Below are positions 7,354 to 53,177 of a DNA stretch of 64,000 bases, piece after piece (the first letter of the stretch is position 1; the number at the start of each line of letters is the position of its first letter). The notes beneath the pieces were generated by a model, which was given only the letters and a program-made list of their open reading frames with translations, was not told the origin of the DNA and ran no database searches. The position numbers and the translations under genes are program-made. This DNA comes from Rhizophagus irregularis (lineage: Eukaryota > Glomeromycota > Glomeromycetes > Glomerales > Glomeraceae): assembly GCF_026210795.1 (NCBI RefSeq), contig NC_089440.1, positions 3,844,001-3,908,000 of the forward strand, in the 5' to 3' direction.

Positions 7354-8862
7354 TTTATGTTGAACGGTAATTTTTCTAGACTTCCAGGGAGGCAATAAAC
7401 CAGTTGTTACCAAATGATATAGATGATCTTTGCATCAACGCAAGCCTTCATTATATTTTGATGCCTTTTGTTCACGAAATGCAGTTAGAGTATGTCGATA
7501 GTGATCGCGTTGAGTTTCTGCGTCCTCCTTATGTGTCCTTGAGGTCTTACACTTGTCCTGATGTGTAATATGCAACGATTCTTCTAGTTCATTCATCATT
7601 TTACATCGCGGTTTCCAAACATGTTTTCTAAAAGCTTCATGAAAGTATTTAATGATCTTTAAAGACAGGAGTGAAGCAATTCTTTTTGATGTGAGTTTTC
7701 TAAGCTTCTTTACGATTGTGTGTGAAATCAAACCACGTAGTAATTCCTGTCTGTTTCTTTGTTTCAGTTCAGGGAAAGCAGGGTCTCTATATTCAAATAT
7801 GCTGATGTAGAGTTCGTTGATCGTGACAGATTTTTTTGCATTTGAAACGTTTGAGATATTTCCGAATCTTATCTATCGTTTCTTTTTCAGCAGCGAGGAA
7901 AGCTTGTTCCAATCCAGTACATATTACTAAATGGTTCAAAGTCTCTTCATGGTCACGGCAAGCTGGACACGGTACATCATCATAAATGTCGTTACGTTTT
8001 CTGAGATTGTCAACTGTAGGTAATAAGTTATTTGAAGACTTTATGAAATTAATTAGAGTATTATTAGTATCAAAATTATCACAACGGCTCTTATTAATGT
8101 TATTAAGATAGTGCCAGTATGCGGTCCAATTCCATTCTGTTGATATATCGTGTGTTTGGTTATCAAAATAATCCTTCCAATTACTATTCAAAGACCACGT
8201 AACCTCTTCCAATGATTCCGAAACTATTCTACAAAATTGTCGAACACGTCTATCTATCTCTATACTATGCCAAACTGGCAGAAATAATAAAGGAAAACTA
8301 TAACTACATATAAATTGTAAGTCAACTAATCTATTAAAATTGACAACCGCCGTTTCTCTACCTATTTTTACTATCGCGTCAGCCTTATCATTCCAATGGC
8401 AACCTGAATGACCTTTGACCTTATGTATTTCAATGTCCAATCTCTTAGACGTGATAATATCATAAATGGCAAAAAGAATGATATAATTATTAAGTTTAAG
8501 AAATTTGCGGCCATGTCTCGATACCATATTGTTAATTGTGTTGATACCATCGATCGCTGCCTGACTATCCGTATGAATGTGTACCCGTGATTCACTGGGG
8601 GCGACTAGTAAAGCTGTCAGTATGGCAAGCAATTCAGGTCTGGTTGATGAGGGGTGGAATCTTATTCCGCATGAGAAGCTAATATCTGTATTTTTTAAAA
8701 TCCAGCCTGCTCCCATTACAACGACGTCTTCATTGTTTATACAATTCAAATTCATTGAACCATCGGTAAAAAAGTGAAACTCTTGATTGTCAAATTGTTC
8801 GAGGCATCCGAGGATATCTGAGAGCTCCGTGATTAGTAATGTTGATGATTAATAGAGTTTTT
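7036..8862 (-). mobile_element. 5'-truncated LINE retrotransposon insertion
   Basis: The 15-mer attaatagagttttt occurs at 7036-7050 and 8848-8862 as a target duplication. A run of 23 T at 7046-7068 is the poly-A tail of a minus-strand insertion. The body (about 7051-8847) carries the end of the reverse-transcriptase protein and a 3' untranslated region that includes an ATT microsatellite near 7330-7353. The 5' part (endonuclease and polymerase domains) is missing, the normal result of incomplete reverse transcription. It sits inside the family C element, so it is younger than that element. Confidence 0.88.
7435..8847 (-). pseudogene. RNase H and C-terminal part of a LINE polyprotein, frameshifted
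   Basis: Reading leftward, the frame enters at the truncation point with FHFFTDGS. It continues through a type-1 RNase H domain: first Asp in FTDGS, Glu in RPELLAIL, Asp in HTDSQAA, last Asp in HWNDKADA, and a KVKGHSG loop. A C-x2-C motif (CPAC) and HLVIC follow in the tail. That frame ends at 7793. A run of seven A on the coding strand (7837-7831) is one base too long: from there the next frame continues the family-like tail (FEYRDPAFP, then a long Lys/Arg-rich stretch) to 7435. With no start, polymerase or endonuclease it cannot act on its own. All four acidic RNase H positions are present. Confidence 0.8.
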
Positions 8863-50887: not shown

Positions 50888-53177
50888 ATGTCGTTAGATT
50901 TTTCTCAAATTTTAGGTATCTCTTTTTTAGAGTAGAGTTTAAGAGTTACTTCGTCAGCACACGTATTAAAACACGAAAAATTTTTACTGAATCGTTTCAA
51001 ATTTCAATTTCAAGCTCCTAGTTTAAATGAAGTCTCCATAGCAGAAATCGAGGGAAAAATTTGTGAGTTGTACGCAGTACTTCAAAAAAATTGTGAATTT
51101 TTAATTCATTTGGCTTTCCTTTAGTGAATTTAGGATGTGCCAAGGATCAAAACCTCACACATTACATAAATTCCGAGGTTTGTTAAATATTATTTATTAT
51201 TATGTGTAATACGCTAAAAATTAACATTTTATTTACGTTTATTAGGGTATTGTGTTTCCAAACCTGCAAGTCCCTTATCAACTTTCGCATCCAGATTTAG
51301 TTCACCTTGGTACACGAAGAGTTGTAACTGACCTACCAACGTCACCCACCGCTTATGGACGATTTATGGATTCAGTTAAGCATTCGATTGAGTAAGTTTC
51401 TTTTTATAAAATAATTCCCTTTTGTTTTATAATATCACTCATCATTAATCTTATTTTAAAAAGTGAGCAAATAAATCAAGCTCAAACATATATACAAGAA
51501 GTAACTCAAAATATTAAAGATATGCTTCCATCATTCTTGAATAATTACATTTTTAATGCCGATACCGAAGAATATATGCAATCGCTTCGTATGAAAATAG
51601 ATCGTTATCCTGCGAAAATTATTGATTGGCATCCATATTTTTCTATATTTGCAGTAGCCCATAGAGTGGATGTCATTTTGCTATATGATTTACGTGTTGA
51701 AGGTGAGGATTCAGATACTTAATAAAATGTTTAAAAAACGAACCAGATTAATATATTTAGTTGAATTCTAGAATGGTTTCCCGAAGTCTTAGAGAATAGT
51801 TTGCAAAAGGAGATTACATGTATGGCTTGGAAGCCATTAGGCGGAAATATCTTAGCAGTCGGATGTCGGTATGTTTTCAACCAAAAAATAAAATATATAC
51901 GTATGAATAATATTTTCTCATTAAATTCTTTTAAATAATTTATTAAGACGTGGAATTTGTTTATGGGAACTTTCACTTGAACAGAAGAAAGAATCGGTAC
52001 CAACGCGTCTTCCCGCGTGGATGCGTCACCTTCATTACCCTGGACACGAAAATATTGTTTCGTTAGCTTGGCATCCACATGGATAATATCCTTAATTATT
52101 CCACGAAATTTTATTAATAATTATAACAATTATAATAATGTAATCTTTGACTTGTGACATAACCTCATTAGCAACAGGTTCGGCGGATGGTTCAGTAATT
52201 CTTTGGGATACAGCGTTTGAAACAGGAACACCTTTAACAAGAAATCGCAAAGTTACGTTTCTGAGCTGGAGTCCTGTTGGAGAATTTTTATTTTCATCAT
52301 CATTGTAAGGTATTTTAGATAAAGTTATCGACATTCTTGTGCGTATTGTTTATATTAATCAAGTAATGTTATATAGAGACGGTAAAATTGAAGTATGGGA
52401 GACTCAACGATGGACATCCAAAACAATAACTTCGAATGGGTATCCCGTCGAGGTGAATTAATTTTTAATTATTTATTGCTTTTCTAAATAACTTATTATC
52501 CTGAAAAAAAATTTTTTTTTTTAAGACAGGATGTTGGACAACAGATGGACGTGCTTTATTCTTGGGATTCGACGGATATGAGGGTGAAATTCTTGTACTT
52601 TCTATATCTCCAAACTTTGATTACGAATGGTTACCTAAAATAGATTTATCTCCAATTCCTGAATGGTATAATATGAATTCTTTGAATTTTAATGTAAAGT
52701 ATAAAATTTATATGTAACCATATAATGTTAACGTTTTCACATATCATCAGCGCTGGTATAGGAATTGAACAACTGGCAATTGATCCGAACGGCGAACGTC
52801 TTATTGCATGTTTCAAAAATACGCAATTGTTCAAAGATACACCATTGTTACTTGTTTTTGATGCTAAGTTACCATCGCAAGTGTCAAAGAAAGCCAATCT
52901 TTTGAATTTTCCAAGAACGATGCGAGGACCCGCATGGAATGATCCTGACGATCAAGGTGCATTTTTAACACAATCTGACCCCAAACCAGTATCCCTAAGC
53001 TTTGCTAAACAATTTACTAGAGGATCTTTATTAAGTCCGGTATGTATTATTAGGGTATCAATTTTTAAAACATAAAATTTATTAATTAATTTGTATAATT
53101 GGTAATTTAATTTTTAGGTATGGGGAGATGGCCAAATATCTTTTATACCATTTTTATACAATAAAGCTAATAAATAA
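50888..53177 (+). CDS. Aladin-like WD40 nucleoporin (AAAS), 5' end uncertain
   Basis: Nuclear pore component on the cytoplasmic face, anchored by Ndc1 in animals. Secure exons: 51125-51177, 51246-51391, 51464-51702, 51772-51868, 51948-52085, 52164-52304, 52377-52452, 52526-52665, 52751-53039 and 53118-53177, all phase-consistent. An upstream exon ending at 51062 (in frame from about 50951) is also clear. How it joins a start codon is not: ATG 50888 would need an intron of only about 30 nt. WD repeats are visible: IIDWHPYFSIFAVAH, ITCMAWKPLGGNILAVGCRRGICLWEL, IVSLAWHPHGY-SLATGSADGSVILWD, LSWSPVGEFLFSSS, and a last blade with VWGDGQISFIPFLY, like the animal protein's end. The intron at 52086-52163 is AT-AC (minor spliceosome type). 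No GT-AG choice preserves the fourth blade. Confidence 0.85.
52086..52163 (+). other. U12-type AT-AC intron in the aladin-like gene
   Basis: The exon reads AWHPHG plus ta. The intron begins ATATCCTTAA, an exact match to the U12 donor core (A/G)TATCCTT. It ends gacataAC, and tctttgac at 52144-52151 resembles the U12 branch consensus TTCCTTRAC, its A 13 bases before the intron end. The next exon starts ctcattagc, and the joined codon tac restores frame into SLATGSADGSVILWD. Without splicing, TAA follows GGA directly. No GT occurs within reach to serve as a usual donor. Confidence 0.85.

Follow-up and report, generated by a model that had tools for sequence, protein, structure and literature searches.

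In animals and plants, U12-type introns with AT-AC ends carry a ATATCCTT donor, a branch word resembling TCCTTRAC, and an AC acceptor as their consensus. The general mechanism of their removal involves U11 and then U6atac at the 5' splice site, and U12 at the branch site, where the branch A is bulged. U2-type introns can also have AT-AC ends, in which case their donors resemble ATAAGT. Among fungi, the closest described system is that of Rhizophagus irregularis itself, the subject of a 2023 study of minor introns in Nucleic Acids Research, reportedly authored by Larue and Roy. The sections of that study drawn on here give 205 minor introns for this species, or 0.272% of 75,377; they also report the full set of four minor snRNAs and many proteins of the minor spliceosome (PMC10639083). 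The same sections quote about 4 minor introns for Rhizopus oryzae and about 20 for Phycomyces blakesleeanus, two fungi harboring the same class of intron in far smaller numbers than R. irregularis (PMC10639083).

The intron considered here belongs to the aladin (AAAS) nucleoporin gene of R. irregularis, located at positions 50888–53177 on the plus strand of the window, i.e. the whole stretch of 64,000 nucleotides that was analysed, which is part of a genome of 146.7 Mb in 32 contigs. The gene model comprises 12 coding exons encoding 484 amino acids, and its 11 introns include 10 of the GT-AG type and a single AT-AC intron. The product is recognized by the Pfam family Beta-prop_Aladin (PF25460) with 173.4 bits, for a cut-off of 171.1, and its top three PDB matches bear the name Aaas-prov protein or Aladin. 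Both lines of evidence identify the seven-bladed propeller of aladin, and the AAAS-like identity proposed by an earlier, sequence-only reading of this DNA is thus borne out. Compared with a deposited R. irregularis protein, 483 of the 484 residues agree, the sole difference being N392 in the window product and D392 in the deposited protein, and the alignment places the same AT-AC junction in both. On the strength of this match, the genome is taken to be that of R. irregularis or of a very close strain. No new named aladin came out of a profile search aimed at other fungi.

The AT-AC intron (52086–52163, plus strand) is 78 nt long and in phase 2. In the gene model, it separates exon 7 (51948–52085, plus strand), which ends in phase 2 with ...HPHG-TA, from exon 8 (52164–52304, plus strand), which begins with C-SLATGSADGS. 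Its assignment draws on the sequence, the gene model, the scoring of alternative joins and a pattern scan. The first letters of the intron are ATATCCTTAATT and the last ones ...AATCTTTGACTTGTGACATAAC. The 5' splice site ATATCCTT occupies 52086–52093, the branch-site word TCTTTGAC, one base off TCCTTRAC, occupies 52144–52151, and the AC of the 3' splice site lies at 52162–52163; the branch word ends 12 nt before the intron end, the 3' end reading TCTTTGAC-TTGTGACATAAC. Across the splice join CATGGATA|CTCATTAGC, HPHG-Y-SLATGSADGSVILWD is recovered in phase 2. Without splicing, the frame runs into a TAA at once, and 3 in-frame stops are found inside the retained intron. The coordinates, the AT-AC ends and the branch word 12 bases from the splice site given by the sequence-only reading were exact on re-reading, and its statements that the join restores the WD-repeat sequence and the codon phase, and that reading stops immediately without splicing, proved correct. 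The intron therefore combines what characterizes the U12 type: an RTATCCTT donor, a TCCTTRAC-like branch site able to pair with U12, a short branch-to-acceptor distance, and frame-consistent termini. Like the animal and plant U12-type AT-AC introns, it has the ATATCCTT donor and, about 12 nt ahead of the AC, a branch word resembling TCCTTRAC. It differs from them in its host, an arbuscular mycorrhizal fungus, and in the base by which TCTTTGAC departs from the consensus, where pairing is kept as G-U.

The machinery expected for such an intron is encoded in the genome. The four minor snRNAs exceed their Rfam gathering scores, with 71.9 bits for U11, 68.9 bits for U12, 79.9 bits for U6atac, and 55.0 bits for U4atac, the latter just over its cut-off of 53; none of the four has a match in the 14 control genomes. 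Pairing of the U11 5' end with the 5' splice site of the intron is predicted at -8.2 kcal/mol. With the branch A bulged, TCTTTG-C of the branch word can pair in full (7 of 7 positions, including two G-U pairs) with the stretch GAGUAAGGA of the genome's U12. Among the proteins, U11/U12-25K (SNRNP25) was found with 98.3 bits for PF18036 in a two-exon reading joined by eye, whose two PDB matches are 1v2y_A (3300001G02Rik protein, the best) and 8r7n_B (U11/U12 25 kDa protein). A CHHC finger of the U11-48K type (PF05253) scores above cut-off, yet this family also matches one archaeal control, and the PDB ranking of the finger places gametocyte-specific factor 1 first (E 4.6e-5) and the 48K chain second (E 0.017); the finger is not exclusive to U11-48K. 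Six-frame genome searches, run without a positive control, gave no match for CENATAC (PF14968) or for PDCD7/59K (PF16021). In the sections consulted of the 2023 study, U11/U12-65K, 35K and 20K are reported in R. irregularis on the basis of reciprocal best hits (PMC10639083). The sequence-only reading had held that the intron would imply a working minor spliceosome in this lineage, and had named a complete absence of minor-spliceosome components among the findings that would refute the proposal. Such an absence is not the case, and the presence of the four snRNAs and of SNRNP25 supports the implication. Its novelty does not stand, as the minor spliceosome of this species was published in 2023 (PMC10639083). 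According to the part of the source used, depletion of CENATAC in human cells leads to excess retention of AT-AN minor introns (PMC8280824), and AT-AC splicing in a fungus without a recognisable CENATAC is a testable question.

Two further features of the snRNA loci can be mentioned. A second U11-like copy (L013:1501-1627, i.e. C30:407421-407547; 55.5 bits, above cut-off) matches the main U11 with 89% identity over 179 aligned nt, among them a TATA-like stretch that both have upstream, and is either a paralogue or a decaying copy. The U12, U6atac and U4atac loci (L009, L010, and L011) have in common an upstream element, AATCCCATAA, followed by a TATA-like box; U12 and U6atac carry it as AATCCCATAATTTTTTGAAA, and a weaker version, TCCCACAATTT, is found upstream of U11. 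This element is possibly an snRNA promoter element of the fungus.

Given the sequence signals, the score of the join (see below), the junction of the deposited protein, and the presence of the minor snRNAs and of U11/U12-25K, the segment 52086–52163 is almost certainly a genuine U12-type (minor) spliceosomal AT-AC intron of the aladin gene, and we infer that it is spliced in the cell through the minor machinery. The one-base departure of the branch word, and the lack of CENATAC and PDCD7/59K matches in searches run without a positive control, weigh against this reading. In the proposed route, U11 and then U6atac would read ATATCCTT, and U12 would read TCTTTGAC with the branch A bulged. The minor spliceosome would then take out the 78 nt and join codon 250 (TA|C, Tyr), within the WD-repeat propeller; if the intron were kept, translation would end right after Gly249. 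The AT-AC termini alone leave the class undecided, as major introns with these termini exist according to the part of the source used (PMC8280824), and an intron of the U2 type would be excised by U1/U2 from the same ends. This alternative is nevertheless very improbable, since the donor ATATCCTT corresponds to the U12 consensus, a U12 branch word is found at the spacing expected for U12, and the genome encodes all four minor snRNAs. The U12-type reading offers a clean AT-AC minor intron that can be tested, within a nuclear-pore gene of a plant symbiont.

Alternative joins were enumerated by pairing every GT, GC or AT donor with every AG or AC acceptor over positions 51960–52290, all other junctions being fixed, and were scored on an aladin profile made of P0017 (unnamed) and the insect aladins P0018 and P0020, without Glomeromycota-named or R. 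irregularis sequences. Among the 140 stop-free in-frame joins, the top score, 155.6 bits, belongs to the 52086/52163 join, and the runner-up AT-AC joins reach 150.1 bits. GT-AG, GC-AG and other joins are clearly outscored, the best GT-AG join having 124.1 bits, 31.5 below the AT-AC join. The assertion of the sequence-only reading that no GT-AG pair can replace the AT-AC one is therefore too strongly worded, since 20 stop-free in-frame GT-AG pairs are available in this interval, but even the best of them scores well below the AT-AC join. As regards chance, the triad of ATATCCTT, TCYTTRAC and AC, a pattern composed after the intron was seen, never arose in 40,000 dinucleotide-shuffled versions of the 240-nt region, whereas ATATCCTT alone arose in 70 of 10,000. 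A looser scan (RTATCC, YCYTTRAY and a matched acceptor, counting only the first match per donor) identified one place on both strands of the 64-kb window, which is the intron 52086–52163; RTATCCTT alone occurs 7 times in the window. A GT-AG intron with shifted exon borders, next to which the AT-AC signal would be fortuitous, can draw on the 20 available pairs. The deficit of its best pair on a profile devoid of R. irregularis sequences, the presence of the AT-AC join in the deposited protein, and the absence of the triad from the shuffles make it scarcely credible.

A U12-type intron is not new as a class in R. irregularis: the class is known and the species is known for it, and the published minor introns come from the same species, with the same class and the same four snRNAs as here (PMC10639083, in the sections used). 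The aladin intron is probably one of the 205 published ones; the main text of that paper mentions neither AAAS nor nucleopor-. A literature search combining AAAS or aladin with minor or U12-type introns, also in fungi, found no report, in a corpus where subscription journals are thinly covered. In the alignment with the human aladin chain (PDB match), residue 257 is the counterpart of Tyr250, whose codon the intron splits, and the site would therefore fall between c.770 and c.771 of the human gene. Exon 8 of human AAAS contains c.771 and c.787 in the part of the source used (PMC4578041), which is compatible with either an exon border or an exon interior at this site.

The new part, which is worth follow-up, is a junction-specific scar in the aladins of other Glomeromycota. 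Fourteen proteins (P0003–P0016) were aligned to the R. irregularis protein P0002 with P0017, P0018 and P0020; the fourteen represent 13 further named taxa, with two proteins from Entrophospora sp. SA101. A taxonomy look-up of ten of these taxa placed every one of them in the Glomeromycota (Glomerales, Diversisporales, Entrophosporales, and Archaeosporales); each of the remaining 3 has its genus in common with one of these ten. When a junction counts as clean with no more than one indel residue within 8 residues of it, none of the 14 models is clean at the AT-AC junction. For the remaining ten junctions, taken in order, the numbers of clean models are 4 (the N-terminal one), 12, 13, 10, 13, 12, 12, 5 (ninth intron), 12, and 9. 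With two indel residues permitted, 3 models are clean at the AT-AC junction and 5 to 13 at each of the others; from the counts, these three are P0003–P0005, whose residues at the AT-AC junction differ from those of R. irregularis. Twelve of the 14 models bear one machine name style ('_t:CDS') and may share one annotation pipeline, so that the 14 models are not independent.

The residues found at the break are QSLTCDIT-SLATG in Glomus cerebriforme, FLTIGIT-SLATG in Funneliformis geosporum, and ALTCGIT-SLATG in Gigaspora margarita; translation of the R. irregularis intron's 3' end in the same frame yields SLTCDIT-SLATG. In these three relatives, the break residues look like translated intron 3' ends, and codons for them could accommodate both a U12-like branch word and an AC at the end. 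Models P0009 and P0013, both from Entrophospora, have HPNE-KYP at the junction, which fits an RTATCC donor in the same phase, and a metagenomic protein fragment (P0001) stops at HPHG, where unspliced R. irregularis hits its stop. Although breaks in 14 of 14 other models could naively resemble gene decay, a pseudogene or a frame-breaking assembly error hardly merits consideration at the R. irregularis locus, where 12 exons join into one open frame whose product matches the deposited protein at all residues but one, and the break residues of the three relatives resemble the translated 3' end of this very AT-AC intron. The junction breaks instead suggest a phylum-wide minor intron that is mis-annotated, and the public aladin models of the 13 other taxa are probably wrong at this same junction. 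It appears fairly likely, as judged from these protein models, that the intron was present in the Glomeromycota ancestor and has been kept throughout the phylum, including Geosiphon and Ambispora. In this proposal, it would have been missed in public models because gene finders expecting GT-AG ends break the protein there. If true, breaks confined to one junction could serve as an RNA-independent guide to conserved minor introns.

Similar introns were also searched for genome-wide. The pattern RTATCCTT-N35-65-TCCTTRAC occurs 41 times in the genome, versus 10 times for the pattern read backwards. The aladin intron falls outside these 41 because of its one branch-word mismatch, and the set includes near-duplicates (L036/L039 and, in part, L016/L050). 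Candidates were retained when a matched acceptor lay 8–15 nt past the branch word and each joined side had at least 25 open codons. Fourteen of the 41 passed, including 11 of 26 in the AT group (AT-AC) and 3 of 15 in the GT group (GT-AG), with branch-to-acceptor distances of 9–14 nt within the 8–15 nt search window. The mismatched pairings gave 0/26 for AT-AG and 0/15 for GT-AC. By itself, the openness test is weak and the acceptor control is not clean: other acceptor dinucleotides passed in the AT group (TT 10, AA 6, TG 5, CA 3, and AT, TC and GA 2 each, of 26) and in the GT group (TT 4, AT 3, AA, TC, CA and GA 2 each, and TG 1, of 15). Within the GT group, AG stands out only against AC and does no better than AT or TT.

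Elsewhere in the window, an open reading frame on the minus strand (7793–8755) looks by eye like the RNase H region of a retroelement.
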